A stretch of 64,000 nt of DNA from Hyphomicrobium sp. (GTDB lineage: Bacteria > Pseudomonadota > Alphaproteobacteria > Rhizobiales > Hyphomicrobiaceae), in NCBI GenBank assembly GCA_003987725.1, contig RXJH01000002.1:348461-412460 (forward strand), written 5' to 3'. Below are positions 29,183 through 54,414 of this stretch, one piece after another (position 1 is the stretch's first letter; every line of letters begins with the position of its first letter). The position numbers and the translations under genes are program-made. The notes under the pieces were generated by a model. The model had not been told where the DNA came from and did not search any database. It was given only the letters and a program-made list of their open reading frames with translations.

Positions 29183-29195
29183 GGGAGAAAATCCC
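29183..29195. promoter_or_regulatory. Candidate quinoprotein-regulon operator before the TonB receptor
   Basis: GGGAG-AAA-ATCCC, a 5-3-5 dyad that differs by one base from the GGGAR-N3-TTCCY motif found before both xoxF operons. It lies about 200 bp upstream of the receptor ATG (29391). It is the weakest of the six sites. Confidence 0.45.
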
Positions 29196-29390
29196 AGCCC
29201 TTCGGTATTCTTTGGAATTCCATCCCATGAGGCGAATTGCCGACCCTATGCATGCGACTTCAGCATAAGGCGCAATCCTGACGCCAAATATCTGATCTCG
29301 CGCCTCTTTCTGAAAACGCCTGATCAACAGGCGATGGCTCGATCTAGCCAGAAAGAGAACTCTGGGGAGCGTATCGTGGGGGAAGAGCTT

Positions 29391-32102
29391 ATGAAGTCGT
29401 TAAAAATATGTGTCGCGACAGCAACGCTTGCGTGCCTTTCGGCACCCGGCGCCATTGCTCAGGACGCAGGAAGCACCACAGCACAGCCGCCGCCCACGGC
29501 AGGCGAAGCACAGTCAGGGCAAAAGCTTCCCGAAGTGCAGGTGATTCAGCAGCAGCAAAAGCCTACGGCAAAACCGAAAAAGGCAACCCACACTCCAAAG
29601 AAGCAACCCGTCCAAAAGGCCGGACCGCCGTCTTCTCCGAACGTAGAGCCGGCAATCGCGGAGCAAGGTGCGGCCCCAACGGCGCCGGTCTTCGCTGTGC
29701 CTGCTCCCCCATCGGACGTGAAGCTGTCGCCGCTGCCGGGCAGTGAAGTACCGATCGGCAAAGTGCCCTATGGCGTAACGGGCCTCTCATCCGCTGACAT
29801 CAATCGCGATCACTCTGTCAATATGCAGGATACGCTGAACAATCGTATTCCAGGCGTTGTCGTTGACGACCTGCAGGGCAACGCATTCCAGACGGGAGTT
29901 CAATATCGCGGCTTCGAAGCTTCACCCGTCAACGGTCTGCCGCAAGGCATCGCCGTCTATCAGAATGGCGTACGTATCAACGAGGCATTTGGCGACACCG
30001 TCAATTGGGACTTCATTCCAGCCAACGCTATCGCCGATCTCACCGTCATGAGCAGCAATCCGATCTTCGGCCTCAATGCCATCGGCGGCGCTATCAACCT
30101 CACGATGAAAGACGGCTTCAATTTCCACGGAGCCGACGTCGACACGCGCTTTGGATCGTTCGGACGCAAGCAGGTCAGTACGGAAGCCGGCATGCAGAGC
30201 GGCAACTGGGCCGCCTACGGCGCGTTCGAAGCCATCAACGATGGCGGATTTCGCGATTTCTCCGACGCCGAGGAACGGCGCGGATATGCGGATCTCGGCG
30301 TCAAAGGCGACGGCGCAGAGTTTCACTTGAACGGAACGATCGCGAGCAGCCACGTCGGCGTGACGGCCGCAGTGCCGGAAGAACTGCTCGACTTTGGCGG
30401 GCGCACGCGCACGTTCACCTCGCCGCAGATCACTCAGAGTGACATGCAGATGGTCTCCTTGAACGGCATCGTTCAGGCGACGCCCGATACCACGGTCTCC
30501 GGCGTCGGCTATTATCGCCACTTCAAGCAAAGCCATATCGACGGCAACATCTCAGAGTTTGAGCCTTGCACCGTCACGGGAGGCGCTGGAGTCATCGGTA
30601 CGTCGCTTTGCACGGAGGACGGGGCTCCGCTCTATGCGCTCGGCGCTGGAGGTCTCACAGGCATAACACTTCCCGACGGCGTGCTTGGGTCGATCGACAA
30701 AACAGGTCAAAACACCGACGGCTACGGATTCTCCTTGCAGGCTGTGAACAAGGCGAACCTCTTCGGCCACCGCAACCAGTTCATCATCGGCACCAGCTAC
30801 GATCACGGTCACGTCGCTTACCGGGCGTCGAGCGAGCTCGGCACTTTCCTGCCGAAATACGTGGTTCGAGGAACGGGTCAGACGCTGTCCGGAGATTCAA
30901 ACCTCCCTGAGGAATGCGAGGATGGCGATCCCGCGCCCTGCCCGTACACGGACGCCACGGACGTTACACCGCGATCGCTGACCACGCTCAACGACTACGT
31001 CGGCGTCTACGCGCTCGATGCCTTCGACGTCACGGATAGATTGACGGTCACAGTGGGCGGCCGCTTCAACTATGCACGTGTCGAGATCATAAATACCGGC
31101 GAGCCGTCGCTCGATGCGCTCGACGGCGTCAATACGTATAACCGGTTCAATCCCTCAGCCGGTTTCACCTACAAAATCAACCCCAACCTCTCGTTCTACG
31201 GCGGCTATTCGGAGGCTAACCGCGCCGCGACGGCGTCCGAAATTGCCTGCTCGGATCCGGAGAACCCTTGCATCATCGAAAGCGCATTGGCTTCCGACCC
31301 GCCTCTTAAACAGGTCGTGACGCGGACCTGGGAACTCGGTTTCCGTGGCGAGCACAACTACTGGACGGGCGAGAAGCTAAACTGGAGCCTCGGCTGGTTC
31401 CGCGCACTCAACGCCGATGACATCATCCAAATCGCGGATTCGCAGCAAGGCCGCGGCTACTTCGCCAACGCCGGCGAAACACAACGCCAGGGCATCGAAG
31501 CGAGCGTCGACTACCGCACGCGGAGGCTTTTTGCCTACGCCAGCTACGCCTACGTCGATGCGACCTTCCAATCGACGAACATCATTCCGTCGGAAAACAA
31601 TCCGCACGAGGAAACGCCCTGCCCTGTCTCTGGCGACATCGATGATGATGATGAGGTTCCGACGTGCCTCACTATCCGGCCCGGCAACCGCATGCCTGGC
31701 GTTCCGCGCCATCGCATCAAGGCCGGGTTCGACTATAAGCTGACGCCGAAGTGGACCTTCGGATCGGACCTGATCGCCGCCAGTGACCAGATCTTCTATG
31801 GCGATGAAGGCAACCATGACCGGCCGCTGCCAGGCTACGTGAAGGTCAACCTACATACGTCCTATGACATCACGGACCGCATCCAGGTCTATGGACTGAT
31901 CGAGAACCTGTTTGATCAGCAGTACGGTGTCTACGGTACGTATTTCAATACTGAGCTGGCTCAAGAAGCTGGCCCCGGCGCGGGTGGTTCAGGCGGACCT
32001 GATCCGTCTCTCAAAGGCTTGAAATATGATCCGGACAATGCGCGAACGATCACACCAGCCATTCCCTTCGCGGCCTATGGCGGCGTGAAGGTCAGATTCT
32101 AA
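29391..32102 (+). CDS. TonB-dependent outer-membrane receptor (candidate lanthanophore/metal uptake)
   Basis: 903 residues: signal peptide (…SAPGAIA-Q), an unusual Pro/Lys/Gln-rich linker (about 25-110), a plug domain (about 130-260; 'NNRIPGVVVDDLQGNAFQTGVQYRGF', 'FGLNAIGGAINLTMKDG'), and a 22-strand-type barrel ending in 'AAYGGVKVRF' with the required terminal Phe. Several predicted surface loops are acidic and bounded by two cysteines, e.g. CEDGDPAPC and C…DIDDDDEVPTC. The ATG at 29391 has GGGGGAAGAG upstream; the frame begins earlier at 29334. Next to two XoxF operons and behind a related operator, a role in lanthanide-complex uptake is plausible but not shown. Confidence 0.88.
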   Translation: MKSLKICVATATLACLSAPGAIAQDAGSTTAQPPPTAGEAQSGQKLPEVQVIQQQQKPTAKPKKATHTPKKQPVQKAGPPSSPNVEPAIAEQGAAPTAPVFAVPAPPSDVKLSPLPGSEVPIGKVPYGVTGLSSADINRDHSVNMQDTLNNRIPGVVVDDLQGNAFQTGVQYRGFEASPVNGLPQGIAVYQNGVRINEAFGDTVNWDFIPANAIADLTVMSSNPIFGLNAIGGAINLTMKDGFNFHGADVDTRFGSFGRKQVSTEAGMQSGNWAAYGAFEAINDGGFRDFSDAEERRGYADLGVKGDGAEFHLNGTIASSHVGVTAAVPEELLDFGGRTRTFTSPQITQSDMQMVSLNGIVQATPDTTVSGVGYYRHFKQSHIDGNISEFEPCTVTGGAGVIGTSLCTEDGAPLYALGAGGLTGITLPDGVLGSIDKTGQNTDGYGFSLQAVNKANLFGHRNQFIIGTSYDHGHVAYRASSELGTFLPKYVVRGTGQTLSGDSNLPEECEDGDPAPCPYTDATDVTPRSLTTLNDYVGVYALDAFDVTDRLTVTVGGRFNYARVEIINTGEPSLDALDGVNTYNRFNPSAGFTYKINPNLSFYGGYSEANRAATASEIACSDPENPCIIESALASDPPLKQVVTRTWELGFRGEHNYWTGEKLNWSLGWFRALNADDIIQIADSQQGRGYFANAGETQRQGIEASVDYRTRRLFAYASYAYVDATFQSTNIIPSENNPHEETPCPVSGDIDDDDEVPTCLTIRPGNRMPGVPRHRIKAGFDYKLTPKWTFGSDLIAASDQIFYGDEGNHDRPLPGYVKVNLHTSYDITDRIQVYGLIENLFDQQYGVYGTYFNTELAQEAGPGAGGSGGPDPSLKGLKYDPDNARTITPAIPFAAYGGVKVRF

Positions 32103-32116
32103 TCGCAGATGGGCGG

Positions 32117-32134
32117 CGCCCGCTTCGGCGGGCG
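32117..32134 (+). terminator. GC-rich TTCG-loop hairpin after the TonB receptor
   Basis: CGCCCGC-TTCG-GCGGGCG starts 15 bases past the receptor stop. It has no clean U-run; together with the following hairpin (32187) it may end the transcript. Confidence 0.5.
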
Positions 32135-36430: not shown

Positions 36431-38329
36431 TTACGGATAGACGCGGAACGTCGAAAGCACACCGCCCTGCGGGATCTTGTCGAGGCCAGCGGCTTTCGCC
36501 ATGGCCGTCGCGCCGATCGCGCCGAACTTGTCGTCCATATCCAGACCCGCGGTGACCGGGATACCGATCCAGCCGCCGAGTCCCTGGAAGACCGAGATGT
36601 ACTCCTTGTCGCCGACTTTCCAGGCAATCGGGTTGCCGATGATGCCGGAAGCAAGCTTGCGCTCCCAAAGCACCTTGCCGGTGTTGCGATCGACCGCGCG
36701 GAAGTGACCGCTGTTCGAACCGTAGAACATCAGGCCGCCGTCGGTATTGAGCGTGCCGGACCAGTTCGGATAGGGATCCGGAATTTCCCAGTCCGCCGTG
36801 CCGCTCACGATATCGAACTTCTTGATCTTGCCGGTGACGCCAGGCTTCTCAGGATACATGTAGACGTTGGCGAAGACGTACACAGTGCCCTGCTGGGTAT
36901 GCGTGCGATCCTGCGGTTCGTCTTCCATGCACCAGTTGTTGGTCGGGCAATAGAACTTGTTCGGTTCTTTCGGATCGACCGAGCACGGCTGCTGGTCCTT
37001 GCCACCCATCGCCGACGGGCATGCCTGGACGTTGCGGTGACGCTCGAACGGCGAGTGCTCATAGACCTTGATCGGACGGCCGGTCTTGAGATCGACCTTT
37101 TCGGCCCAGTTCACGGTCACGAACTTGTTGGCCCGGAGCAGCGTGCCATCGTCGCGATTGAGAACGTAGTTGAAGCCGTTACGGTCGAAGTGAACAAGGA
37201 CGTCCTGCTTCTTACCGTCGATGTCGAGATTATCGACGAGGATGTTCTCGTTGACGCCGTCATAGTCCCATTGATCGAACGGTGTCATCTGGTAGGCCCA
37301 GGCGACCGAGCCATCTTCAACGTGGCGAGCGAAAATGGTCATCGACCACTTGTTGTCCCACTTACCGTTGTTGCACTCGTCATGGGTCTTGGCGCCGCAG
37401 CGATAAGACGGGCTCCAGTGGCCGGGGTTACCGGTCGACCAGTAGACGAGCTTCCGCTTCGGGTCGTAGCTGCCCCATGCCCAATACGAGCCGCCGCCGA
37501 TTTTCCATTCGCCGCCGTTCGTGGCCGGGTAACTCGAAACACCGATGTCGGAACCGGCCGTGCCGTACTCAGGGTGCGCCTTGTTGGTGTCTTTCGTCAG
37601 GCACACGTCCTTGTCCGGGCCATTCGAATGGCACTTCCATACGACCTTGCCGGTCTTGAGGTCGTAGGCCGTCAAACGTCCGCGTGCTGCGAATTCGTCG
37701 CCGCCAAAGCCTGCGATCACAAGGTTTTCAGCGATCAGCGTCGGGCCGGTGATCGTTTCTCCCTTTTCAGGATACGCATGCTTGACGACCCACACTTCCT
37801 TGCCCGTTGACGCGTCGAGAGCGATTACGAAACCATCGAGCGTATGATAGATGACCTTGCCGTCAGCATAGTTGACGCCGCGATGAACGGTGTCGCAGCA
37901 GGCGCGCGGTACGGCAGTTTCGTCACGATCGGTTTTCTTGACGTAGTTCCAGACCTGGACGGGATTGTCGGGATCCGTCAGATCAAGTGCCTGCAAAATA
38001 TTGCACTGGGCCATGTTGGGGCAGCCCGATGAGAAGTACATCATCGGCTTGCCGTCATGAATGACGACGATCGGCTGGCCTTCATGTCCGCGCAGTGCGC
38101 CGGTCGATTGCGACCAGGCAAGCTGCAGCTTGTCGACGTTACCGGTATTGATGTCGGAAAGATCCGAATGGCGCGTCAGCTGGTTGTCGCGGCCGGGCGC
38201 CGGCCACAAATTCGGGTTCTTCGCCTCTTGTTCGATCTGTTCGTTGGCAAAGCTGGGTACAGCAGAGGCACCGCATAGGAGTGCCACCGCAAGCCCGCCC
38301 GCCAACAGGAATGATTTCCTGAAGCTCAT
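36431..38329 (-). CDS. xoxF: Lanthanide-type PQQ alcohol (methanol) dehydrogenase XoxF, copy A
   Basis: 632 residues with signal peptide (…SAVPSFA-N). It is an eight-bladed quinoprotein with 'QSTGALRGHEGQPIVV', vicinal cysteines C144-C145 of the PQQ pocket, metal ligands E212 and N301, catalytic D355, and D357 two residues on (FDQWDYDG). An Asp at that last position marks lanthanide-dependent enzymes; calcium MxaF has Ala. It should oxidise methanol or another short alcohol to the aldehyde in the periplasm. No mxaI-type small subunit is present. ATG at 38329 with GAGAGGA upstream. First gene of operon A; its own 267-bp upstream region holds an operator-like dyad. Confidence 0.95.
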   Translation of the reverse strand: MSFRKSFLLAGGLAVALLCGASAVPSFANEQIEQEAKNPNLWPAPGRDNQLTRHSDLSDINTGNVDKLQLAWSQSTGALRGHEGQPIVVIHDGKPMMYFSSGCPNMAQCNILQALDLTDPDNPVQVWNYVKKTDRDETAVPRACCDTVHRGVNYADGKVIYHTLDGFVIALDASTGKEVWVVKHAYPEKGETITGPTLIAENLVIAGFGGDEFAARGRLTAYDLKTGKVVWKCHSNGPDKDVCLTKDTNKAHPEYGTAGSDIGVSSYPATNGGEWKIGGGSYWAWGSYDPKRKLVYWSTGNPGHWSPSYRCGAKTHDECNNGKWDNKWSMTIFARHVEDGSVAWAYQMTPFDQWDYDGVNENILVDNLDIDGKKQDVLVHFDRNGFNYVLNRDDGTLLRANKFVTVNWAEKVDLKTGRPIKVYEHSPFERHRNVQACPSAMGGKDQQPCSVDPKEPNKFYCPTNNWCMEDEPQDRTHTQQGTVYVFANVYMYPEKPGVTGKIKKFDIVSGTADWEIPDPYPNWSGTLNTDGGLMFYGSNSGHFRAVDRNTGKVLWERKLASGIIGNPIAWKVGDKEYISVFQGLGGWIGIPVTAGLDMDDKFGAIGATAMAKAAGLDKIPQGGVLSTFRVYP

Positions 38330-38595: not shown

Positions 38596-38608
38596 GGGAT
38601 GACTTCCC
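38596..38608. promoter_or_regulatory. Candidate quinoprotein-regulon operator before xoxF copy A
   Basis: GGGAT-GAC-TTCCC, a 5-3-5 dyad, about 270 bp upstream of the xoxF-A ATG and 57 bp beyond the end of the response-regulator gene. The xoxF-B copy is at nearly the same distance (about 255 bp). A separate 13-bp dyad, GACAC-TAG-GTGTC, lies close by at about 38562-38574. Confidence 0.6.
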
Positions 38609-38664: not shown

Positions 38665-39288
38665 CTAGTTCTTGCGCATTTCAAGCGCCATTCTGATGAG
38701 ATCGGCGGTTCTTTCGACCGCGAGCTTGTTCTTCATCAGGCTGCACGCATTGGCGACCGTCTTGTAGGCGACGTTTAACGTCCCGGCGATTGCGGAAAGG
38801 CTCTTACCCTCACCCAGCAACCGCAGAATTTCGATTTCGCGCATGGTCAACCGCTCGAGAAGATCGCCGTCGCCGGAAAACTGCTTCATAGCGAGATCCG
38901 TTGCAATTTCCCGCTCTACGTAGCGCTTGCCTTCGGCGACGCGCAGCACTGCGGTTACGAGTTCTTCGGCGGACGCACCTTTCGAAATGTAACCTCGGGC
39001 GCCTGCCTGCACGGCGCGGGCGGCATAAATTGCTTCGGCATGCATGCTCAGCATCAGGACCTTGGCGTTAGGGTTCTCAATAAGAAAGCGTTTCAGAAGT
39101 TCGAGGCCGCTTGATCCGGCGAGACTGATATCAAGCACGACGATATCGGGACTCTGCTGGCGAAATACCGTGAGTGCTTCATAGCTCGTCGCCGCTTCAT
39201 AGATGTCCGCGCTCGGGATCGCGGAGAGCAGGCGGCGGACGCCTTGGCGGACGAGAACGTGATCATCGACCAATAAGATCTTCATCAT
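38665..39288 (-). CDS. NarL-family response regulator
   Basis: 207 residues: receiver (1-120) with acidic pair D8-D9, phospho-acceptor D53 (VLDIS) and K103 (YISKG), then a LuxR-type HTH (about 142-205). The recognition helix, AYKTVANACSLMKNKL, is nearly the same as that of the regulator at 53706 (SYKTVAADCAMLRTKL). It overlaps the kinase gene by four bases and ends the long xoxF-B operon. It probably activates the xox genes. Confidence 0.92.
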   Translation of the reverse strand: MMKILLVDDHVLVRQGVRRLLSAIPSADIYEAATSYEALTVFRQQSPDIVVLDISLAGSSGLELLKRFLIENPNAKVLMLSMHAEAIYAARAVQAGARGYISKGASAEELVTAVLRVAEGKRYVEREIATDLAMKQFSGDGDLLERLTMREIEILRLLGEGKSLSAIAGTLNVAYKTVANACSLMKNKLAVERTADLIRMALEMRKN

Positions 39289-40650: not shown

Positions 40651-41619
40651 TTAGGGTTTGATGACGAGGCCCCATGGGAGGCGGCCAACAGGGATGGATT
40701 TCTCCGCTTTCAAGCTTGCGACATCGATTACGGTGACATCATTCGAAAGCCCGTTGGCGGTAAAGAGTTTCGTGTGATCGGTATTGAAGTCCATATGCCA
40801 TGGGCGCTGGCCGACCAGGATAAGGCTCAACGTCTTGTATGTGGCTGTGTCTATGACCGCGATGCGGTTAGCCCGGCCCAGGGCAACAAACGCTCGCTTG
40901 CCGTCGGGAGTGAACTGCACGCCCATGGGCTGAATGAGTTCCGGCCGGACGCCCGGGATGTCGAATGTCAGTCTTTGCTTGATCTTGCGTTGCTCCGCAT
41001 CGATCACCGATACGGTGCCGCCGACTTCGGCAGTGACCCAAACCTCTTTTCCATCGGGCGTATATCGAGCAACGCGTGGACGCGTATCGACGAGCACGTT
41101 GGCAACGACCGTCATCGATTTGATATCGATGAAATGCGCCATGCTCGTCGATTCCGAAGTCGCAACCACGATGGCGTCATCGGGAGATACCGCCATGCCT
41201 TCCGGTTCGACACCGATTTGGATTTCTCCGCGCACTGACCCGTCAGCGGCGCTGATAACCGTCACCATGCCGTCGTCTTCGTTGGCAATGTAAATGAACT
41301 TGCCAGCGTGATCGATATCGAGCAGCTCGGGGTCGGGGCCTGACGTTTCGTGCGTGCTGGTGATTTCGAAGGTCGTCGTATCCATTACGTCGAGGCGGTT
41401 GTCGTCGCCCGCGCAGATAAAAAGCGTTTTGTAATCGGGCGACAGCACCATTCCACGCGGCCGCTTTCCAACGGGCACGGTCTTGATCACTTTCAGCGTA
41501 CTCGTATCGAGTACGGTAATGGTGTTGTCTTTCTCGTTGCTGATGAATGCGGTGCCAGCGAGTGCCGGGTGGGCAATCCAGAACGAAACAAGAGCCAATT
41601 TCCAACCTAATCGCATCAT
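40651..41619 (-). CDS. PQQ-pathway YVTN beta-propeller protein, copy B
   Basis: 322 residues, leader ending …HPALA-G, seven YVTN-type blades (FISNEKDNTITVLDTSTLKVIKTVPVGKRPRG…). It is about two-thirds identical by eye to copy A (32261) and colinear with it throughout, including 'GPDPELLDI', 'NEDDG.VTV', 'GVEPEGMAVSPDD', 'VGGTVS.ID' and a shared C-terminal 'LKAEKS..VGRLPWG'. It precedes the kinase gene by ten bases. Confidence 0.88.
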   Translation of the reverse strand: MMRLGWKLALVSFWIAHPALAGTAFISNEKDNTITVLDTSTLKVIKTVPVGKRPRGMVLSPDYKTLFICAGDDNRLDVMDTTTFEITSTHETSGPDPELLDIDHAGKFIYIANEDDGMVTVISAADGSVRGEIQIGVEPEGMAVSPDDAIVVATSESTSMAHFIDIKSMTVVANVLVDTRPRVARYTPDGKEVWVTAEVGGTVSVIDAEQRKIKQRLTFDIPGVRPELIQPMGVQFTPDGKRAFVALGRANRIAVIDTATYKTLSLILVGQRPWHMDFNTDHTKLFTANGLSNDVTVIDVASLKAEKSIPVGRLPWGLVIKP

Positions 41620-43613: not shown

Positions 43614-45455
43614 TCAATTGCTCCGCTCCTGAGAGAGAAGGCCGAGCAAGCTCACGACCGCAGTGTTGCCGTTCTGGCGTGCCAAATCGGCAGCGGTCTG
43701 GCCTTGCGGCGACTTGAAATTCTGATCGGCGCCCGCCTGTGCCAGCAGGCCGACGATCGGTGCATTGTTGTGGGCGGCGGCGAGAAGAAGCGCCGTCACG
43801 CCCGATCCCGAGACATCGTTGACCTTCGCCCCTTTTGCGATCATCGCCCGGGCAACATCGATCGGACCCGGATCGCTTGGATTGACTTTTTCGATGCGCG
43901 ATACTCCGGCGCCCAATGTCAGCTCCCGGTCTTCAGAACCGGAGATCAGCATCAATGGCGTGAGTTTCGCCTCTCCGTCCGCCGTCTCGACGTTCGCGCC
44001 GGAGGCAATCAGGGCGATCGCGGCCTTGTATTTACTCTCGAGGATTGCCAGAGCGAGCGGCGTCACACCTGTCGGCGTCCGTGCCTCGAGATCGGCGCCG
44101 TGCGTTCCCAGCGCATCGATGGCGGCACCGGAATTACGCAGCACAGCGTGTTGCAACGGCGTGTAGCCGTCCCGGTCCTTTATGTTGACATCGGCTTTGC
44201 GGGCAATCAGCGCCGAGATGATTTCGGGGCGCTCGTTTCGCGCCGCGATGTGCAACGGCGCATATCCCTCGGGATCAAGCTTGTTTACATCGGCGCCCTT
44301 GTCGAGCAGGAACGCGATGCGGTCTTTGTCGTTGGCAAGAACAGCGTTCGATAGCTCCTGGTTGACGTCGGCTCCGTCCTTGAGCCAATTTTCCAGGCGT
44401 TCACGCGTAACCTTCTGGTCGGCCGCGATCGCGACGGGCCCAGGGCTCGTATCCACAATAGGCTTCGTATAGATGCCGTGCGACGGAAGATCCCCGGCGA
44501 CGAAGCAACGGCTGCACTGTACGAGGGGCACGCCATAATCCCGCAGTATCTTTTCGATCTCGGCTTTCTTCGCTTCCAGCGCCAAATCGAATTTGTACTT
44601 GAGGATCCAATCGATCTTCCGGAGGCCGATCGTCAGATCGAATTCCAGCGGAACATCATCCTCGTCGAGATTGACCGGTTGAATGACGAGCGGCTCGCCC
44701 TTCATCGTCTTCAGCCAGCCCGCAAATGGTCCCCACACCGCGGCAACATCGAGTTTGCCGTCGATGACATCCTGAACTTGCCGCCAAGGTTGGGCTGCGG
44801 GATCGAGGTCGGAATTGTGGCTCAGGACGTGCAGGCTGACATTGCTGCGTATGCCGCGCTCAGCCAGCGCCATGCGAATGCCCGACGTCTGAAACGTGCC
44901 AATGGAAAGCTTCTGTAGCTGCGGATCGTCGAGGTTCTTGATCTTCAGGCCGCGATCGCTGCGGTACGCGAGGACATACGTCGTCCGATAGATCGGCTCC
45001 GTCGTCAGGACGCGCTCGAAGCCGACCGGGAGATCGAGCAGGACATCACAGTCGCCCGATTCAAACGTTTGCCGGGTGATTCCGCGCTCGAGATAAGGGC
45101 GCCAGAAATAGGTCACGGACGTGCCCATCTCGGCCGCAATGAGTTCAATGATCTTGTTCTCGAATCCCGCGCGATTGATATCCGAAAGCGGCAAGTTTCC
45201 CGGATCGCCGCAGACCTGAAGCGCCGGAACCCGACGCTCCGTCGCGGCCTTTTTCAACGCGTTGTGATCGGCAGACGTCAACGGCATCTGCGCTTCGAGG
45301 TGAGCGAGCGCCGTCTCGAGACGAAGCTTGTCTTTGTCCGGCGGGGTATCGGCGGCGACAGCGAACTGTCCGGCGAAGCTCAGGCCGGACATCAGCAGTG
45401 CGCCCGCGAGGACCTGGAAACGCCGCGGACGCCGCCAACTGCAATCAGAAGTCAT
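43614..45455 (-). CDS. xoxJ: XoxJ-type periplasmic binding protein fused to ankyrin repeats, copy B
   Basis: 613 residues with a leader (…GQFAVAA-D). The XoxJ domain spans about 55-305 ('LQVCGDPGNLPLSDINRAGFENKI', 'YFWRPYLERGITRQTF', 'YRTTYVLAYRSDRG', 'AAVWGPFAGW', CSRC). Ankyrin repeats then fill about 340-600 (FLLDKGADVNKLDPEGYAPLHIAARNERPEIISALIARKADV, …). The same domain order and the CxxC are conserved in copy A, so the fusion predates the operon duplication. Start ATG 45455 (GAGG nine bases upstream); 45470 and 45542 are alternatives. Confidence 0.88.
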   Translation of the reverse strand: MTSDCSWRRPRRFQVLAGALLMSGLSFAGQFAVAADTPPDKDKLRLETALAHLEAQMPLTSADHNALKKAATERRVPALQVCGDPGNLPLSDINRAGFENKIIELIAAEMGTSVTYFWRPYLERGITRQTFESGDCDVLLDLPVGFERVLTTEPIYRTTYVLAYRSDRGLKIKNLDDPQLQKLSIGTFQTSGIRMALAERGIRSNVSLHVLSHNSDLDPAAQPWRQVQDVIDGKLDVAAVWGPFAGWLKTMKGEPLVIQPVNLDEDDVPLEFDLTIGLRKIDWILKYKFDLALEAKKAEIEKILRDYGVPLVQCSRCFVAGDLPSHGIYTKPIVDTSPGPVAIAADQKVTRERLENWLKDGADVNQELSNAVLANDKDRIAFLLDKGADVNKLDPEGYAPLHIAARNERPEIISALIARKADVNIKDRDGYTPLQHAVLRNSGAAIDALGTHGADLEARTPTGVTPLALAILESKYKAAIALIASGANVETADGEAKLTPLMLISGSEDRELTLGAGVSRIEKVNPSDPGPIDVARAMIAKGAKVNDVSGSGVTALLLAAAHNNAPIVGLLAQAGADQNFKSPQGQTAADLARQNGNTAVVSLLGLLSQERSN

Positions 45456-45566
45456 TGAGGTGACCCTCATTTGAAATCGCGCGCTTGCTCGGAGGTGCTC
45501 ATACCGACGACGGCGCCCGGCGAGGAATTCGCCGAGCGCCAATCGACTTCTCTGCGTCGCGACTGA

Positions 45567-47450
45567 CTATTCCATCACCCGGAACGTGAAGAGCGTTCCG
45601 GCCTGGGGAATCTTGTCGAGATTTGCAGCTTTGGTCATGGCCGTGGCGCCGATCGCACCGAACTTGTCGTTGAGATCGAGGCCTGCGGTGACGGGAACGC
45701 CGATCCATCCGCCGATACCCGACAGGATCGAGACATATTGCTTGTCTTTGATCTTGTAGGTGATCGGATTGCCGATGATGCCCGAGGCCAGCTTGCGGTC
45801 CCAGAGGACCTTGCCCGTGTTGCGATCGACCGCGCGGAAATCACCGCCGAGCGAGCCGTAGAACATCAGGCCGCCTGACGTGTTGAGCGTGCCGCCCCAG
45901 TTCGGATACTGGTCCGGAATTTCCCAATCCGTCTGGCCGGTCAAGACATCGTACTTCTTGATCTTGCCGGTGACGCCGGGCTTCTCCGGGAACATAAACA
46001 CGTTGGCGAACACGTAGACGGTGCCCTGTTGCGTGTGGCTGCGTTCCTGCGGCTCAAGCTCCATGCACCAGTTGTTCGTGGGGCAATAGAACTTGTTGGG
46101 CTCTGCCGGATCGACCGAGCACGGCTGCTGGTCCTTGCCGCCCATCGCCGACGGGCAGGCATTGACGTTGCGGCCACGCTCGAGCGGCGAGTGCTCGCGC
46201 ACCTTCACCGGACGGCCCGTCTTGAGGTCGATCTTCTCGGCCCAGTTCACGGTCACGTACTTGTTGGCACGGAGAAGCGTGCCGTCTGTCCGGTCGAGAA
46301 CGTAGTTGAAGCCGTTGCGGTCAAAGTGGACGAGCGTCTTGCGGTCTTTGCCGTCGACGTTCATGTCGACGAGAATGTTCTCGTTGACACCGTCATAGTC
46401 CCACTGATCGAACGGAGTCATTTGGTAAGCGAAAACCGCTTCACCGGTATCGACCTTGCGCCCGAAAATGGTCATCGACCACTTGTTGTCGAACTCGCCC
46501 GTGTTGCATTCCTCGTGCGTTTTCTTGGCGCAACGATATGCGGGGCTCCACAGGCCAGGGTTGCCTGTCGAGTAGTAGACCATCTTCAGTTCCGGGTCGT
46601 AGCTGAACCAGCCCCACGCCGAACCGCCGCCGATCTTCCAATCGTCGCCGACGTGCGTATGGATGCCGAGATCTTTGCCCGCCGTGCCGTAGTGGGGATT
46701 TGCTTTGTTGGTCTCGGCGGTCAGGCAGACGTCCTTGTCGGAACCCGTCGAATAGCATTTCCAAACTTGCTTGCCGGTCTTCAGGTCATAGGCGTTGACA
46801 CGGCCGCGAGCCGCGAACTCGTCACCGCCGAAACCGATGATGACAAGACCATCGGCGATAAGCGGCGCGTTGGTGATCGTCTCACCTTTTTCCGGCCACG
46901 CATGCTTGACGACCCAGGCTTCCTTGCCGGTCTGGGCGTCGAGAGCGATGAGGAAGCCGTCGAGCGTGCCGAACACGACCTTTCCGTCGCCGTAAGCCGG
47001 GCCGCGGTTGACCGTATCGCAGCAGGCCCGCGGCACGGCCGTTTCGTCGCGGTCCGTCTGCTTCACATAGTTCCAAATCTGCTTCGGATGGTCGGGATCG
47101 GAAAGATCGAGACCCTGGACGATATTGCACTTCGACATCTCCGGGCAGCCGGAGACGAAGAACATCATCGGCTTGCCGCCGACGTCTTCGATCACTACGG
47201 GCTGACCTTCATGACCCCGGAGCGCGCCGGTCGATTGCGACCAGACCATCTGCAGCTTCGAGACGTTGTCGGTATTGATGTCCTTAAGTGGGCTGTGACG
47301 GGTCAAGGCGTTGTCACGGCCCGGCGCAGCCCACTCGTTGGGATTGGCCGCGCGGTGGGCAACTTCATCCTCGGCAACCGCTGGCAGGACAAAACCGATC
47401 AGCGTCGCCAAGATGCCGCCCGCAAGATAACGGAGCGATCTCATTCTCAT
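45567..47450 (-). CDS. xoxF: Lanthanide-type PQQ alcohol (methanol) dehydrogenase XoxF, copy B
   Basis: 627 residues, leader …VLPAVA-E. The key positions mirror copy A: vicinal C143-C144, E211, N297, catalytic D351 and lanthanide-marker D353 (FDQWDYDG). The two copies are colinear with few gaps and roughly 70-75% identical by eye. The ATG at 47450 has the strongest Shine-Dalgarno of the region (AGGAGG, seven bases upstream), consistent with high expression. First gene of the operon xoxF-xoxJ-cytochrome-binding protein-propeller-kinase-regulator. Confidence 0.95.
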   Translation of the reverse strand: MRMRSLRYLAGGILATLIGFVLPAVAEDEVAHRAANPNEWAAPGRDNALTRHSPLKDINTDNVSKLQMVWSQSTGALRGHEGQPVVIEDVGGKPMMFFVSGCPEMSKCNIVQGLDLSDPDHPKQIWNYVKQTDRDETAVPRACCDTVNRGPAYGDGKVVFGTLDGFLIALDAQTGKEAWVVKHAWPEKGETITNAPLIADGLVIIGFGGDEFAARGRVNAYDLKTGKQVWKCYSTGSDKDVCLTAETNKANPHYGTAGKDLGIHTHVGDDWKIGGGSAWGWFSYDPELKMVYYSTGNPGLWSPAYRCAKKTHEECNTGEFDNKWSMTIFGRKVDTGEAVFAYQMTPFDQWDYDGVNENILVDMNVDGKDRKTLVHFDRNGFNYVLDRTDGTLLRANKYVTVNWAEKIDLKTGRPVKVREHSPLERGRNVNACPSAMGGKDQQPCSVDPAEPNKFYCPTNNWCMELEPQERSHTQQGTVYVFANVFMFPEKPGVTGKIKKYDVLTGQTDWEIPDQYPNWGGTLNTSGGLMFYGSLGGDFRAVDRNTGKVLWDRKLASGIIGNPITYKIKDKQYVSILSGIGGWIGVPVTAGLDLNDKFGAIGATAMTKAANLDKIPQAGTLFTFRVME

Positions 47451-47698: not shown

Positions 47699-47711
47699 GG
47701 GAGTTGTTCCT
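47699..47711. promoter_or_regulatory. Candidate quinoprotein-regulon operator before xoxF copy B
   Basis: GGGAG-TTG-TTCCT, a 5-3-5 dyad about 255 bp upstream of the xoxF-B ATG. Closer to the gene there is another inverted repeat, CTCGAAC-CGGCT-GTTCGAG (about 47552-47570), whose role is unknown. Confidence 0.6.
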
Positions 47712-47821
47712 GGAGCATACAGGAAGGCTTCCTCTTCACACGGATGTGATGTTATCACGACGCGTAGGGATCATTTTTGATCTGCGAAAGCCGGCTCGGC
47801 TCATCCCATCGGATGACGGAA

Positions 47822-47874: not shown

Positions 47875-47997
47875 TCAACGTGGCATTTGCAATATGCCGA
47901 CAGGCTTCGACATTCCGCCATGGGCAATTCTCCCGAATTCAACGCCTCAAAATCCCGGGAAAGAAATTTAGCTTCAACCGTTCGTGAACGTCGAACT

Positions 47998-49134
47998 TCA
48001 GGGACTCGAGATGAGTGCCGCAAGTTTATCGGCCAGGACGTCTAGATCCTCCACACCGTCGCTATTCGTCAGTAGGGTAACTGACACCCAATGATTGTCG
48101 CGACGGCGCACGATCAAATTGAAGGCGGTGTAGCCCGAGACGGTTCCGCTATGAAAATAGCGATCCACGCCATCCTTGTGCGTAATGAACCAACCGGCGC
48201 CATAGTAAGTCCAGACGTCCACGCGGGCAGAATCCGAGAGCATGACATCGCGCATGGCCGGCGTCAGTGCGCGCCCCTCCATCAAGGCCTTATTCCATTT
48301 GAAAATATCCATGACGGACGACGCGACATCGCCGCTGCCTTTCAACCAATCCGGCTGGGAGAAGCGTGGCCGACGGTTGTAGTGCGGACTTGCCAAGCGA
48401 TGGGCAAAGCTTGGATCATTTCCGAAACCCGTCTCTGCAAGGCCGAGGCGCGAGAAGACTTCCTCCTGCAGAATACGCCGGTAGTCGCGCGACACTCCAT
48501 CCACCTCGACAGCTTCCATGAGTTCGGACAGCAGGAAGTAGCTCGTATTCGAGTATTCGAACGATCCGGGAAAGCCGCTCGGCCGATAGTCCTTTATTCC
48601 ATCGAGCAAGCGTGGCGCAGGCACGGCTCCCCAAGGATCCAGCTCATGAGGCGGCCGGCGCGTGAAGTTTGGTAGGTTCGACGTCATCGACAAAAGGTGG
48701 CCCACGGTGATGGGCGGCCCCCCTTCGAGCGTCCAGCCACCTGCGACGTCGAGCAGGTTGGAGACGGGCGTGGCAGTGGTCAGCCGTGAACCGTCGCGCC
48801 GGAGAACGGCGTTCTTTTCGATGAGCCAAAGGACTGCCGTGGCGGTGAACTGCTTCGTTATCGAGCCGACCATGTAAATGGTCCGCGCAGTCGCCGGACG
48901 ATGCTTGTCCGCGTCTCCAAATCCATCGGCATAGAGCAGTGTTCCATCCCGGCCGATCGCGACGCTCATCGCAGGGAGTGGACGCGACATGCCATCGACG
49001 CCTGCAGCCATGAAGTTTTGAATCAACGTCGCAGCGGATGCACCAAGCGAGCCGGATCCCTCCTCTGCTCCGGCGGGCGAGCGCACGAGCGACACGGCGA
49101 CGGCCAGAAGCAATATCCAACGGCAAGCTGCCAT
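47998..49134 (-). CDS. Secreted beta-lactamase-family serine hydrolase
   Basis: 378 residues with a signal peptide (…RSPAGA-E). The serine-hydrolase triad of class C beta-lactamase / DD-peptidase-like proteins is present: S91-x-x-K94 (GSITKQFTA), Y194-S-N196 (FEYSNTSYF), and an HSG motif (YFHSGTVSGY). It may act on peptidoglycan fragments or small esters/lactones; the substrate is not evident. Start ATG 49134; the frame reaches 49191. It is divergent from the SoxYZ-like gene, and the shared promoter region contains a regulon dyad (49194). Confidence 0.88.
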   Translation of the reverse strand: MAACRWILLLAVAVSLVRSPAGAEEGSGSLGASAATLIQNFMAAGVDGMSRPLPAMSVAIGRDGTLLYADGFGDADKHRPATARTIYMVGSITKQFTATAVLWLIEKNAVLRRDGSRLTTATPVSNLLDVAGGWTLEGGPPITVGHLLSMTSNLPNFTRRPPHELDPWGAVPAPRLLDGIKDYRPSGFPGSFEYSNTSYFLLSELMEAVEVDGVSRDYRRILQEEVFSRLGLAETGFGNDPSFAHRLASPHYNRRPRFSQPDWLKGSGDVASSVMDIFKWNKALMEGRALTPAMRDVMLSDSARVDVWTYYGAGWFITHKDGVDRYFHSGTVSGYTAFNLIVRRRDNHWVSVTLLTNSDGVEDLDVLADKLAALISSP

Positions 49135-49193: not shown

Positions 49194-49206
49194 AGGAATA
49201 TTTCCT
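49194..49206. promoter_or_regulatory. Candidate quinoprotein-regulon operator between hydrolase and SoxYZ-like genes
   Basis: AGGAA-TAT-TTCCT, a perfect 5-3-5 palindrome, 66 bp before the hydrolase ATG (minus) and 115 bp before the SoxYZ-like ATG (plus). Confidence 0.6.
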
Positions 49207-50881: not shown

Positions 50882-51991
50882 CTATTGCGCCGGAAGGCGC
50901 GACAGATCCCATATCCGCGCCTTGCCGTCATAGGACGCCGTCACGACCTTGCTCCCATCTGGCGAGAATTCGGCATCCTCGACTTCCATGAGGTGCCCGG
51001 CGAGGGTCGCCAGCGACGCGCCGGTTTTGGCATCCCAGACGCGCGCGGTCTTGTCATGGGAGGCCGTTACGAGACGCGTGCCGTCTGAGCTGAGTGCCAG
51101 TCGCATGACGTAGCGATCGTGCCCGGTGAACGTCGCGATGACGGCTCCCGTCTCAACGTCCCACAGCTTCGCCGTCTTGTCGGTCGAGGCCGAATAGAGC
51201 TTCGTTCCGGTGTGATCGAAGATAACTTTGAGAACCCCGCGCTGATGGCCCTCGAGCTTTCGAATGAGGGTGCCAGTATTCGCATCCCAGATGCGAACGA
51301 ACTTGTCGCTCGACGATGTCGCGACTTTCTTTCCATCGGGACTGAATGCGACGCTCGTTACCATGCCGCCGTGATCGCCCAGCGTGAAGAGCAAGGCCCC
51401 GGTCTTGCCGTCCCAAATTCTGGCTGTCCGGTCGTTTGACGACGTCGCGATGCGCGAAGCGTCCGCGTTGAATTCAATATCGGAGATATTGCCCTCGTGG
51501 CCGGTCAGCTTCAGAAGCTCTTTGCCACTGCTAGCATCCCAGACGCGAGCCGTCGTATCGAGGGATCCCGTTGCTATCTTTGTACCGTCCCGGCTGAACG
51601 TAACCGCTTCCGTCATAGCCGAATGCCCCACGAGTTCGCCTCGATTGGCGCCTGTCTCGCCGTTCCAGAGACGTCCGGAGCCGTCTCGCGCGACGGTGAC
51701 AATGATCTTGCCGTCAGGGCTGAACGCGGCGTTGCGCACACCTTGCTCGTGCCCCTTCAAAGTCGCGATCTCGGCGCCGGTTTCGGCGTTCCAGAGCTTA
51801 GCGGTCTTGTCACTCGACGCCGTCAGAACGCGGGTACCGTCCGGACTGAACTGTGCCACCCAAAGATCGCTCGTGTGACCGGCCAATACGAACTGCGGAT
51901 CGGTTAAGACGACGCCGTCGGCGCGGGAATTTTCCGGCAAGAGCGCGCACATGGCGAAGACGACGAAACTCAGGCCTCTTGCGAATGACAT
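50882..51991 (-). CDS. Exported WD40-repeat beta-propeller protein
   Basis: 369 residues with a leader (…PENSRA-D) and eight WD40 repeats of the pattern GH-x-…-F-S-P-D-G…-V-T-A-S-x-D-x-T-A-x-L/V-W-x-x-x-T-G, the last shorter. Periplasmic WD40 proteins in quinoprotein loci probably act as scaffolds. It is the first gene of a two-gene unit with the VWA gene and faces DUF3617 across a promoter region with a perfect regulon dyad (52056). Confidence 0.9.
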   Translation of the reverse strand: MSFARGLSFVVFAMCALLPENSRADGVVLTDPQFVLAGHTSDLWVAQFSPDGTRVLTASSDKTAKLWNAETGAEIATLKGHEQGVRNAAFSPDGKIIVTVARDGSGRLWNGETGANRGELVGHSAMTEAVTFSRDGTKIATGSLDTTARVWDASSGKELLKLTGHEGNISDIEFNADASRIATSSNDRTARIWDGKTGALLFTLGDHGGMVTSVAFSPDGKKVATSSSDKFVRIWDANTGTLIRKLEGHQRGVLKVIFDHTGTKLYSASTDKTAKLWDVETGAVIATFTGHDRYVMRLALSSDGTRLVTASHDKTARVWDAKTGASLATLAGHLMEVEDAEFSPDGSKVVTASYDGKARIWDLSRLPAQ

Positions 51992-52055: not shown

Positions 52056-52068
52056 GGGAATACTTCCC
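52056..52068. promoter_or_regulatory. Candidate quinoprotein-regulon operator between WD40 and DUF3617 genes
   Basis: GGGAA-TAC-TTCCC, a perfect palindrome and the best match to the motif, 71 bp before the WD40 ATG (minus) and 131 bp before the DUF3617 ATG (plus). Confidence 0.65.
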
Positions 52069-52192: not shown

Positions 52193-52711
52193 ATGCGTTC
52201 GACAGCTCTGCTCTTCGCCCCCCTCGCCTTTCTCGCATTTTCCGTATCCTCCGCCTCTAGCGACGACGCGAAGGCAACCTTGCCCGAGCGCAAAGCCGGG
52301 CTCTGGGAACTCAAAACCGTGATGGACGAAGGTAACGGCCCGCACGACCAGACCATGAAGCTCTGCATCGACGGCCAAATGGAAAAGAATACCGTTTCCG
52401 CCAGCGTCCTCGAACACAAGGCAAATTGCTCGTCCTACGACATCAAGTCGGCGGGCGGCTCGACCGAAGTCAATTCCGATTGTCTCTATAACGGCCGCAA
52501 GGTCATGAGCACCACGACCATGTCTGGGGACTTCAAGTCCGCATTCGAGATCAAGATCCAGAGTACGACGACCGAACCCGAGCAAAAAACGCAAAGCGTC
52601 GTCGTCAAACGCACAATCACCCAGCTTGGCAAGTATGTCGGCGAGTCGTGCGGCGATTTGAAAGCGGGTGAAGCAGAAGCGGCCGACGGAACGCGCATAC
52701 TGGTTCAGTAA
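52193..52711 (+). CDS. Exported DUF3617-family protein
   Basis: 172 residues with leader (…SVSSAS-S). The pattern 'KAGLWELKTVMDEGNGPHDQTMKLCIDGQ' followed by 'CSSYDIKSAGGSTEVNSDCLYNGRKVMSTTTMSGDF' is typical of the DUF3617 family of secreted proteins (function unknown). Start ATG 52193 with GGGAGA upstream; the frame begins at 52172. It is followed after 21 bp by the SUMF1-domain gene, probably in one operon. Confidence 0.83.
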   Translation: MRSTALLFAPLAFLAFSVSSASSDDAKATLPERKAGLWELKTVMDEGNGPHDQTMKLCIDGQMEKNTVSASVLEHKANCSSYDIKSAGGSTEVNSDCLYNGRKVMSTTTMSGDFKSAFEIKIQSTTTEPEQKTQSVVVKRTITQLGKYVGESCGDLKAGEAEAADGTRILVQ

Positions 52712-52732
52712 ACTTCGCGAGATGGATCAAAG

Positions 52733-53680
52733 ATGCGTCGTCTCACCGATATCGCTCGTGCTTGCACGTGCGCGACACTGCCAGCATTCGTAGCTGTAGC
52801 CCTGATCCTCGCCGCCCAGCCGTCGCATGCGGGCGATGGCCTGGCAGCGGCGCCGGCGATCAATGATTGTCCCACGGCGCACTGTCCGGACCTGATCGTC
52901 ATCCCAGCTTCGCCGCCAGGATTTGAGATCGGCTCTCCGGAAGACGAGCCCGAGCGTTTGCCATCGGAGAAGCTGCATCACGTTTCCATCGGGTCATTCG
53001 CGATCGGCAAATATGAAGTGAGAACCGCGGAATATATGGCCTGCGTCGATGCGAAAGCCTGCCGGCCGCCGGAATGGCTCGAGCCCGGCGGCGAGCACAA
53101 CATCTATACGGGCAGCGGTGTTACGTACAAAAGCATGGCGGACTACATCAAGGGTGACGATCAGCCGATCGTCGGCATCAGCTGGGACGATGCGACCTCC
53201 TACGCCGACTGGTTGTCCAAGAAGACCGGTCATCACTATCGCCTGCCGTCGGAAGCAGAATGGGAATATGCGGCACGCGCAGGAAGCAAAACCTCCTACT
53301 GGTGGGGGAAAGACGTCAAAAACAATGGCGAGGTAATGGCCTGCTGCCGCGGCTGCGGAAGCGAACGCGATGGCACCGGCGCCTATCCGGTCGATAGTTT
53401 CAAGCCCAACGCCTTCGGCCTCTACAATGTCCACGGCAACGTCTGGGAGTGGGTTGCCGACTACTATTGCGACGACTACGAAACGGGTCCGAAAGACGGC
53501 TCCGCACGTCAATCAAAAAGCTGCGGCAAGGAGGGCGCAATTGAAGGGCTGCGCATCTTCCGGGGTGGATCCTGTTTTTATGAGCCGCGTCAGATGCGTG
53601 CCGCGATGCGGCTCAGGAATTGGCCGTTCTTTCGTAATCAGACACTCGGCTTCCGAATTGCCAGAGATCTTTCGCCCTGA
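52733..53680 (+). CDS. Exported SUMF1/FGE-fold protein lacking the FGE cysteine pair
   Basis: 315 residues, leader …AAQPSHA-G. The SUMF1 fold is clear: 'FEIGSPEDEPERLPSEKLHHVSIGSFAIGKYEVRTAEYMACV', 'YRLPSEAEWEYAARAGSKT', 'GLYNVHGNVWEWVADYY', 'RIFRGGSCFYEPRQMRAAMRLRN'. In catalytic formylglycine-generating enzymes GGS is followed by a Cys three residues on and another five later; here the spacing is GGSCFYEPRQM and both are absent. It is therefore unlikely to make formylglycine, unlike the protein at 60290. A structural or regulatory role in the quinoprotein regulon is possible. Confidence 0.85.
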   Translation: MRRLTDIARACTCATLPAFVAVALILAAQPSHAGDGLAAAPAINDCPTAHCPDLIVIPASPPGFEIGSPEDEPERLPSEKLHHVSIGSFAIGKYEVRTAEYMACVDAKACRPPEWLEPGGEHNIYTGSGVTYKSMADYIKGDDQPIVGISWDDATSYADWLSKKTGHHYRLPSEAEWEYAARAGSKTSYWWGKDVKNNGEVMACCRGCGSERDGTGAYPVDSFKPNAFGLYNVHGNVWEWVADYYCDDYETGPKDGSARQSKSCGKEGAIEGLRIFRGGSCFYEPRQMRAAMRLRNWPFFRNQTLGFRIARDLSP

Positions 53681-53705
53681 GCAATTGCCCTCGTCCCGAT
53701 CGCCC

Positions 53706-54323
53706 TCAGACAAGCTTTAGCTCGACGGCAATGCGGACCATTTCCGAAGAGGTGCGCGCATTGAGCTTCGTCCGCAACATCGCGCAATCGGCCGCGACGG
53801 TCTTGTACGAGACGGAAATATCGTTGGCGATTTCGGCCATGCTGCGCCCCCGAGCCAGCATCCTGAGAACGACATGCTCGCGGTCGCTCAGCATTGCCGT
53901 CGTCCCGCGGGCACGAGACCGGATCAGCGCCATTTCCTGGATGAGTTCATCGGATATCCAGGAACCTCCGCGCGCAACCGTGAGGACGGCATCTCTCAAA
54001 TCGAAAGGATTGCCGTTCTTGCTGACATAACTTTTTGCCCCGCATTCGATTGCCTGGATGGCCAGCATCGGGGTGTCGTTCATCGAAAAAACGACGATCC
54101 GCGCGTTGGGATTCTTGGAGACAAATTCCCGCGTGAGATCGAGGCCTGAACCGTCAGGAAGATTGATGTCGACAACTGTGACGTCCGGTGCCTCGTCCGT
54201 CATCGCGACGCGTCCGGCCGAGATCGTGCTCGCTTCGATCATTGTCACTCCGTCTTCTTCCGAAAACAATGCCCGGCAACCGGAGATGACAATGGGATGA
54301 TCCTCGATCACGAGAAGCTTCAC
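53706..54323 (-). CDS. NarL-family response regulator, second pair
   Basis: 205 residues from a GTG at 54323 (the frame reaches 54389 but the receiver starts with MKLLVIEDHP). It has the acidic pair E8-D9, phospho-acceptor D52 (VVDINLPDG), K102-equivalent (YVSKNG), and a LuxR-type HTH with recognition helix SYKTVAADCAMLRTKL. It is divergent from its kinase gene, and the 111 bp between them carry a regulon dyad. Confidence 0.9.
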   Translation of the reverse strand: MKLLVIEDHPIVISGCRALFSEEDGVTMIEASTISAGRVAMTDEAPDVTVVDINLPDGSGLDLTREFVSKNPNARIVVFSMNDTPMLAIQAIECGAKSYVSKNGNPFDLRDAVLTVARGGSWISDELIQEMALIRSRARGTTAMLSDREHVVLRMLARGRSMAEIANDISVSYKTVAADCAMLRTKLNARTSSEMVRIAVELKLV

Positions 54324-54401
54324 GTCGGCTCGCGCTCTTCTTGACTTCCAGACCAACTTTGGTTCTAGCGAGCAGAGACGGATTATCAATATCCATTTTC
54401 C

Positions 54402-54414
54402 GGGAGATTTTCCC
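54402..54414. promoter_or_regulatory. Candidate quinoprotein-regulon operator between regulator and kinase genes
   Basis: GGGAG-ATT-TTCCC, a 5-3-5 dyad, 79 bp before the regulator GTG (minus) and only 20 bp before the kinase ATG (plus). This position suggests autoregulation. Confidence 0.6.

Follow-up and report, generated by a model that had tools for sequence, protein, structure and literature searches.

A conserved GGGA-N5-TCCC dyad as a predicted operator of LuxR/NarL-type response regulators at the xoxF genes of Hyphomicrobium

A stretch of 64,000 nucleotides from Hyphomicrobium sp. (GenBank assembly GCA_003987725.1, contig RXJH01000002.1, positions 348,461 to 412,460; hereafter the window, numbered from its first letter) carries two xoxF operons, each encoding a dehydrogenase that depends on pyrroloquinoline quinone (PQQ). 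The initial annotation listed six copies of a 13-bp inverted repeat (dyad) in this cluster and claimed that it defines a quinoprotein regulon. We asked whether this dyad is a genuine regulatory element, and whether its distribution follows the PQQ cofactor or something else. The dyad, of which the core is GGGA-N5-TCCC and the best form GGGAA-N3-TTCCC, follows a clade of LuxR/NarL-type response regulators and not the cofactor. With a probability of roughly 0.8, as judged from sequence comparison, we consider it to be the operator of this clade, which includes the two regulators of the window, here called RR38 and RR53.

The six sites are real, intergenic and present in the reported form at the positions given in the initial annotation (29183, 38596, 47699, 49194, 52056 and 54402). 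Three of them (47699, 52056 and 54402) match the pattern GGGARNNNTTCCY exactly and the other three (29183, 38596 and 49194) have one mismatch each. The list was incomplete, since a second dyad upstream of xoxF2 (47721-47733) and a weaker third site (47922-47934) had been overlooked. The sites are as follows, with matches given out of 10 arm positions and ranks obtained with the matrix described below.

29183..29195, weak dyad GGGAG-AAA-ATCCC, followed 138 bp downstream by the first ATG of the TonB receptor gene; matrix rank 5
38596..38608, dyad GGGAT-GAC-TTCCC, upstream of xoxF1 and 56 bp past the RR38 stop codon; matrix rank 2
47699..47711, GGGAG-TTG-TTCCT, first member of the pair at xoxF2 (dyad 1), 8/10; matrix rank 7
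47721..47733, AGGAA-GGC-TTCCT, second member of the pair at xoxF2, 8/10, 22 bp from dyad 1; matrix rank 8
47922..47934, GGGCA-ATT-CTCCC, a weak third site in the xoxF2/hydrolase intergenic region; 8/10
49194..49206, dyad AGGAA-TAT-TTCCT, in the promoter region of the divergent hydrolase and SoxYZ genes; matrix rank 4
52056..52068, perfect dyad GGGAA-TAC-TTCCC, in the promoter region of the divergent WD40 and DUF3617 genes; matrix rank 1
54402..54414, dyad GGGAG-ATT-TTCCC, in the promoter region of the divergent RR53 and HK54 genes; matrix rank 3

The near-equal placement before both xoxF operons, previously put at 255 and 270 bp, was borne out, with measured site-to-start distances of about 267 bp for xoxF1 (38329 to 38596) and about 249 bp for xoxF2 (47450 to 47699).

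We then compared the frequency of the pattern with that in controls. When at most one mismatch was allowed, the window contained 29 matches (a palindromic site being counted twice) against 12.96 expected (standard deviation 4.27), and this number was reached in none of 100 shuffled sequences. A matrix was built from 24 sites of relatives (G003, G010, G016, G019, G002, G021 and G011), from which the window genome (G000) and its near-identical relative G020 were excluded; because these 24 sites had been located with the annotated pattern at syntenic places, the matrix tests conservation and is not fully independent. Its information content is concentrated in GGGA and TCCC, and the five intervening bases are more variable. 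Over the 64 kb, this matrix ranked 52056, 38596, 54402, 49194, 29183, a coding site at 6442, 47699 and 47721 highest. Six positions scored at least 13, whereas 60 Markov sequences averaged 0.98 such positions and never had more than 5; the window counts at scores of at least 12 and at least 11 (7 and 9) equalled the random maxima (7 and 9). Seven of the eight top hits were intergenic, while about 11% of the window is intergenic according to a rough gene list (binomial P of about 2e-6). The reported lack of sites before the urease, arylsulfatase and outer-membrane channel genes also held at the level of the strongest hits: among the top 25 matrix hits, none was intergenic in 1-28 kb or 55-64 kb, and the next closest intergenic hit was at 28189 with a score of 10.1.

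The genome-wide density check proposed in the initial annotation yielded an excess over the control, but a mild one. In the whole 4.25-Mb genome, the exact pattern matched 36 times, compared with 24 times for the reversed control, and with at most one mismatch there were 113 places against 82. Summed over 22 genomes of the genus, the perfect palindrome occurred 100 times against 62 in the control. A sigma-70 promoter scan of 47.4-54.5 kb found 2 promoters against 2.4 expected, and no promoter hexamers are claimed. The evidence for the dyad is thus its position and conservation, not its density.

In relatives, the dyads have been kept at syntenic positions while the DNA around them has diverged. 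The comparison covered up to 10 relatives, whose orthologues of the kinase HK54 range from 91% to 38% identity. Sites matching at least 9/10 were present between WD40 and DUF3617 in 6/6 regions and between the hydrolase and SoxYZ genes in 5/6 (all five relatives, the window itself reaching 8); in relative L059 the latter region corresponds to xoxF2|SoxYZ, and the site is kept. A 9/10 dyad was found between RR38 and xoxF in all seven regions examined, the seventh (L067) lying before an xoxF2-type gene, and at the xoxF1 site an extended block, AAAAAACATCGGGAA.TC.TCCCGTGG, was invariant in 6/6 aligned sequences. The 22-bp pair of xoxF2 is present in the window, G020, G010, G019 and G011 (relative loci L056, L060, L063 and L067), and in G003 (L058) the first dyad is kept and the second has diverged. 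The third site at 47922 has a counterpart at a similar offset in L056, L058 and L063, not in L060. In the RR53|HK54 region, sites of at least 9 were found in 6 of 11 cases and of 8 in two more, with none in the three most distant relatives. Syntenic conservation therefore supports the proposal that a single cis element is common to both xoxF operons, to the WD40/VWA and DUF3617/SUMF1 genes, to the hydrolase/SoxYZ genes and to the RR53/kinase pair.

Is this a quinoprotein regulon? The genome has 12 genes with strong matches to PQQ alcohol dehydrogenases, 10 of them above the family cut-off, and two of the 12, both in the window, carry a site of at least 9/10 or a 22-bp pair. The other ten have no match of at least 9/10 in the examined flank (up to 1.5 kb), nor does pqqB, the sole PQQ synthesis gene examined. 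Several of these dehydrogenase genes have 8/10 near matches, and since the two sites of xoxF2 are themselves 8/10, the score alone does not cleanly separate them from xoxF2. In most of the loci examined in the genus, the dyad is also found at a paralogous kinase/regulator pair beside polysaccharide-export genes. A quinoprotein regulon is accordingly not supported as the definition of the element. As the pattern alone is a poor guide as well, the dyad is best read as the operator of a regulator clade, with xoxF among its targets.

The dehydrogenases and the two regulatory pairs to which this reading refers are the following.

36431..38329, minus strand, xoxF1-like PQQ dehydrogenase with the lanthanide-type WDYDG motif; TIGR03075, best PDB match 7o6z
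45567..47450, minus strand, xoxF2-like PQQ dehydrogenase with the lanthanide-type WDYDG motif; TIGR03075, best PDB match 7o6z
38665..39288, minus strand, RR38, NarL/LuxR-type response regulator (Response_reg and GerE) with recognition helix VAYKTVANAC
39285..40640, minus strand, HK39, HisKA_3 sensor kinase with a LapD/MoxY periplasmic domain
53706..54323, minus strand, RR53, NarL/LuxR-type response regulator (Response_reg and GerE) with helix VSYKTVAADC
54435..55796, plus strand, HK54, HisKA_3 sensor kinase

Both dehydrogenases score above the TIGR03075 cut-off and rank 7o6z, 4mae and then XoxF entries in the PDB, and we take the second Asp of WDYDG to mark lanthanide enzymes; they are XoxF-like proteins, predicted to be lanthanide-type methanol dehydrogenases. 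RR38 and RR53 have the receiver (PF00072) and the GerE helix-turn-helix (PF00196) above cut-offs, so that the initial annotation named the right kind of putative binder at 38665 and 53706. The LapD_MoxY_N domain of HK39 is barely above its cut-off (26.2 versus 25 bits).

Within the genus, three paralogous regulator families (RR53-, C11- and RR38-type) have the dyad at their own genes. Among RR53-type genes of at least 64% identity, it lies at -89 to -94 in 11/13, and the other two have an 8/10 match in the same region. At a second RR53 copy of the window genome (L069, G000:C5:392503-393753; 89-92% identity), dyads were observed on both sides, and the adjoining HK54-like kinase is present only as fragments (76% over 37 amino acids and 46% over 41); this may be a decaying duplicate that keeps its operators. 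RR38-type genes have the dyad 43-74 bp past the stop codon, upstream of the next xoxF, in seven of nine loci. C11-type loci, several of which were picked after perfect dyads had been seen beside them, have it upstream of the kinase in 14/15. Owing to this preselection, a separate count was made on 17 loci fetched by kinase similarity, from which L053 and L054 (distant partial matches) were excluded: a dyad of at least 9/10 lay within 500 bp upstream in 12/17, compared with 0 for four scrambled palindromes, many of the genes overlapping earlier sets in which dyads had already been seen. The recognition helices are alike across the clade (AYKTVAN.C and SYKTVAADC; IAYKTVANIC in C11). In the window genome the C11-type genes adjoin Poly_export and Wzz-like genes; at this locus (L070, G000:C11:718835-722000) the C11 pair and a dyad stand beside them, and the clade may thus touch polysaccharide export.

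Outside the genus, named genomes were scanned by regulator alignment, and the best 80 of 516 confirmed stretches were analyzed. Matrix hits of at least 13 numbered 67 in these 80 loci against 14 expected. In 33 loci outside Hyphomicrobium with RR38 relatives of at least 44% identity, the zones upstream of the kinase (15.2 kb) contained 13 dyads and those immediately downstream of the regulator (5.2 kb) 7, compared with 16 in the remaining 447 kb, while seven scrambled palindromes gave 0 to 2 in the kinase-upstream and regulator-downstream zones; these zones were set from the genus results, after the named-genome matrix hits had been seen. In three species of Nitrospirillum, a TonB receptor gene and the kinase gene diverge from the site, as judged from match positions (a mechanical call placed it inside an open reading frame), and in Aurantimonas and Jiella it follows the regulator gene and precedes a beta-propeller gene.

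To relate the dyad to XoxF itself, we considered XoxF1-type genes, which were detected in 24 of 397 genomes of the order at E 1e-200; in a class-wide search at the same threshold, only the window genome was positive among 385. The promoter survey comprised 31 loci, including the two of the window, from 45 matches listed, with rough gene starts and distances. The dyad was present in 12/12 loci of family f1 (7 at 9/10 or better, the rest at 8/10 with both cores) and 2/3 of family f10, compared with 0/15 of family f204 at 9/10 (1/15 by the looser rule) and 0/1 in G043. When RR38 was searched in 19 XoxF1 genomes, a regulator of at least 50% identity was found in all seven f1/f10 genomes and was absent from the 12 others; in these the best match reached 35-37%, except for G780 and G043, which had no match at E 1e-30. 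Counted per genome, the dyad was found in 5/7 with an RR38-type regulator versus 0/12 without one at 9/10 or better, and in 6/7 versus 1/12 at 8/10 with both cores, a contrast that favours the regulator, although it is confounded with descent because 11 of the 12 genomes without RR38 belong to one family. Five further XoxF1 genomes (G000, G002, G010, G011 and G019) have both RR38-type regulators and dyads, four of them at 9/10 and G019 as an 8/10 pair.

Paired dyads show a preferred spacing. Of 29 pairs within 60 bp, 19 are 22 bp apart, and the others are at 42-43 (8), 17 (1) and 45 bp (1), some rows of this count being the same DNA present in two loci. Pairs at 22 bp also occur at two other TonB-receptor genes of the window genome (7430/7452 in L115 and 7913/7935 in L107), with no site at a third paralogue (L116), and in a promoter beside a Wzz-like gene (8720/8742 in L105). 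In the Nitrospirillum loci L195, L196 and L197, inspection by eye of the DNA near -1540 relative to the regulator showed an extra half site in addition to the dyad, with TTCCCGA recurring around the dyad at an interval of 22 bp.

The same dyad and spacing were found in Pseudomonas and Stutzerimonas, of which nine named genomes were analyzed; 16 of 18 matches were examined, two fragments from G807 being excluded, and the P. putida KT2440 promoters are outside this set. Each of the eight PedE-type genes (AWDFSG, lacking the extra Asp) is preceded by a pair of dyads at a spacing of exactly 22 bp, of which the second matches at 8 or 9/10, and all five PedH-type genes (GWDFDG or GWDYDG) have one perfect dyad ending about 32-36 bp before the presumed ATG, where the PedE and PedH names rest on identity and the Asp motif. 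More distant dehydrogenase genes (40-41% identity, probably quinohaemoprotein-type) had no dyad in 3/3 cases. In P. putida KT2440, PedR2 is described as needed for pedE activity and as mediating partial repression of pedH (PMC6115532). Two upstream sites at an activated gene and one near the start of a repressed gene are what would be predicted of an operator. We tentatively suggest, at somewhat less than even odds, a single operator code for lanthanide/alcohol switches across Alpha- and Gammaproteobacteria, in which a 22-bp pair at the promoter would mean activation (xoxF2, PedE-type genes and some TonB receptors) and a single perfect dyad near the start codon repression (PedH-type genes). 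If this is true, the number and place of dyads would explain how PedR2 turns pedE on and pedH down. By eye, a further shared element, TTGCTACCAAGG or CTACTACCAAGG, was seen upstream of the dyads in PedH-type and most PedE-type promoters (L329-L333 and L320-L327); it may be the site of a second regulator, for example AgmR.

Several observations weigh against the assignment of the dyad to this regulator clade. The adjacent Pseudomonas regulators have another recognition helix, ISGKTVSNYLTLLKSK or similar, in 9/9 cases, so that similarity of the helix does not account for the presence of the dyad in that group. Either one dyad is recognised by two different helices, or the binder there is another regulator such as AgmR, which PMC12997753 also places in the Pseudomonas cluster. 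Among 36 named loci with less than 44% identity, the dyad was upstream of the kinase in 6, and all five RR53 relatives of 43-54% identity are without the -91 site. The RR38 locus of G016 has no dyad of at least 9/10 nearby, that of G019 has one about 245 bp away, and G567 has an RR38-type regulator and no dyad at its XoxF1 gene. A third regulator type, whose helix (VSYKTIANTC) resembles those of the clade and which stands beside an ExaA-like gene, had no dyad of at least 9/10 within 2.4 kb in 3/3 loci.

If the dyad is nonetheless the operator of this clade, a cognate HisKA_3 kinase would sense a periplasmic signal, presumably an alcohol, a lanthanide or the state of the dehydrogenase. The phosphorylated regulator might then bind a single dyad as a dimer, or bind cooperatively to two dyads 22 bp (two helical turns) apart next to the promoter. 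Once bound, it would drive xoxF, the TonB receptor and accessory genes, and also its own kinase or regulator gene, resulting in autoregulation, with the sites perhaps divided between RR38 and RR53. Such a division could take the form of two operator subclasses, with A/T-rich spacers for RR53- and C11-type regulators and G/C-containing spacers (GAC, GAG, TTG) at xoxF1 and xoxF2 for RR38, giving two overlapping regulons. By eye, the spacers at xoxF1 and xoxF2 do differ across relatives from those of RR53|HK54 and the C11 kinases; however, in no examined genome are RR38 and RR53 found apart in this cluster, and the outer positions of the spacer contribute little information to the joint matrix. 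We therefore regard this refinement, which is compatible with an operator of the clade, as possible but doubtful.

Other explanations would change the identity of the binder or the nature of the element. One master regulator, the C11 paralogue beside the polysaccharide-export genes, might bind all dyads, with RR38 and RR53 as mere, non-binding targets; its helix IAYKTVANIC resembles that of RR38, and the upstream dyads of the C11-type kinases (14/15 loci) extend to genomes such as G006 and G015, where no XoxF1 was found. However, in Nitrospirillum, Aurantimonas, Jiella and Acetobacteraceae the dyads adjoin the kinase or gene of other regulators of the clade, and RR53-type genes retain the dyad at a fixed distance from themselves, which makes a single master rather unlikely. 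It is slightly less likely still that a transcription factor other than a response regulator binds the dyad and controls these loci by coincidence: the length of the dyad would suit many dimeric regulators, and the deviating helix of the Pseudomonas regulators beside the genes fits this idea, but the dyad is linked to kinase/regulator pairs in several genera and co-occurs with RR38-type genes. A terminator scan flagged 52055-52069 on both strands, as would be expected of an RNA hairpin or terminator with arms pairing in the transcript, yet such a scan found 9 in the region against 7.7 expected, pairing at the fifth position is frequently lost (GGGAT..TTCCC) although GGGA and TCCC persist, and the sites precede start codons and form pairs at exactly 22 bp; a hairpin is hence very improbable. 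The probability that chance sites were merely chosen by eye from a loose pattern is negligible, for in spite of a raw density only mildly above the control, the relatives-only matrix recovers the sites and they recur at the same places in relatives, a conservation that refutes chance.

The operator reading also concerns the neighbouring genes of the cluster, which are listed here.

29334..32102, plus strand, TonB-dependent receptor
40651..41619, minus strand, PQQ-associated beta-propeller protein downstream of xoxF2; TIGR03866
41641..42918, minus strand, periplasmic binding protein; PF13458
42912..43553, minus strand, cytochrome c downstream of xoxF2
43614..45542, minus strand, MoxJ-like binding protein fused to ankyrin repeats; TIGR03871 and ankyrin
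47998..49134, minus strand, serine beta-lactamase-type hydrolase; PF00144
49315..50142, plus strand, quinoprotein-dehydrogenase-associated SoxYZ-like carrier; TIGR04557
50078..50872, minus strand, VWA-domain protein
50882..51991, minus strand, WD40 protein
52193..52711, plus strand, DUF3617 protein
52733..53680, plus strand, SUMF1/FGE-type protein

Position and conservation support the view that the DUF3617, SUMF1, WD40/VWA, SoxYZ and hydrolase genes are tied to XoxF via the predicted operator. For the TonB receptor, the proposed link holds in part. In relative L057, the receptor site is kept as GGGAGCAAATCCC in similar flanks, together with a better site, GGGAAAAAGTCCC, and no site of at least 9/10 was found at the corresponding locus L056 (G020). 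The link is thus supported by one relative, by the two other receptor genes with pairs and by the TonB genes divergent from RR38-type kinases elsewhere. The TonB receptor of G020, the closest relative, itself appears broken or truncated (L056:15899-16753), with two tblastn pieces in different frames. A second ankyrin protein follows xoxF1 (34486-36654), so that, with the fusion at 43614-45542, ankyrin proteins are tied to XoxF operons.

NarL/FixJ-type operators are generally short inverted repeats bound by a dimer of a GerE-domain regulator; compared with these, the sequence GGGA-N5-TCCC and the 22-bp pairing differ. A LuxR-type regulator and sigma-54 reportedly control exaA, a quinoprotein alcohol dehydrogenase gene, in Azospirillum brasilense, as the title of a 2017 study by Singh et al. 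has it; the study may describe a related site. Among the closest known systems is PedS2/PedR2 (EraSR, ExaDE) of Pseudomonas, which acts on pedE/exaA and pedH: there, too, a LuxR-type regulator serves PQQ alcohol dehydrogenases, one of them lanthanide-type, and the same dyad precedes both kinds of gene (8/8 and 5/5 loci), but the adjacent regulator has 40-43% identity to RR38 and a different helix. The available portions of PMC6115532 and PMC12997753 name no operator for this system. In the MxaY/MxaB lanthanide switch of methanotrophs, a kinase and a response regulator are proposed to control xoxF1, as we propose for the window. MxaYB control has been suggested for Methylocella silvestris, in which xoxF1 has LutBAH-like neighbours (PMC9291206); there xoxF1 adjoins a TonB receptor, a YVTN protein and a binding protein, and likewise in the window. 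The terms 'binding site' and 'motif' occur 0 times in the main text of that article. As far as the available parts of these sources go, CgrA binds TGTGA-N6-TCACA, which is unrelated to the dyad (PMC4681086), AIDmut-Seq deals with ErdR and not with regulators of the window type (PMC9927353), and the Azospirillum RpoE6 study gives no EraR operator (PMC12826043). Among the matches listed for the open-access literature, mostly titles and the beginnings of abstracts, no printed description of the dyad was found; subscription papers were outside this scope, and novelty is provisional.

Lanthanide switches are known genetically, and no operator is named for them in the literature surveyed; the dyad offers a concrete, conserved sequence with 22-bp pairing. 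It ties unexplained genes, namely those of the SoxYZ-like carrier, DUF3617, WD40/VWA and SUMF1 proteins, as well as TonB receptors, to XoxF, and it offers a simple rule that may account for the opposite control of pedE and pedH. With the dyad in hand, one can test directly which regulator acts at which site, and regulons become easier to read from genomes.

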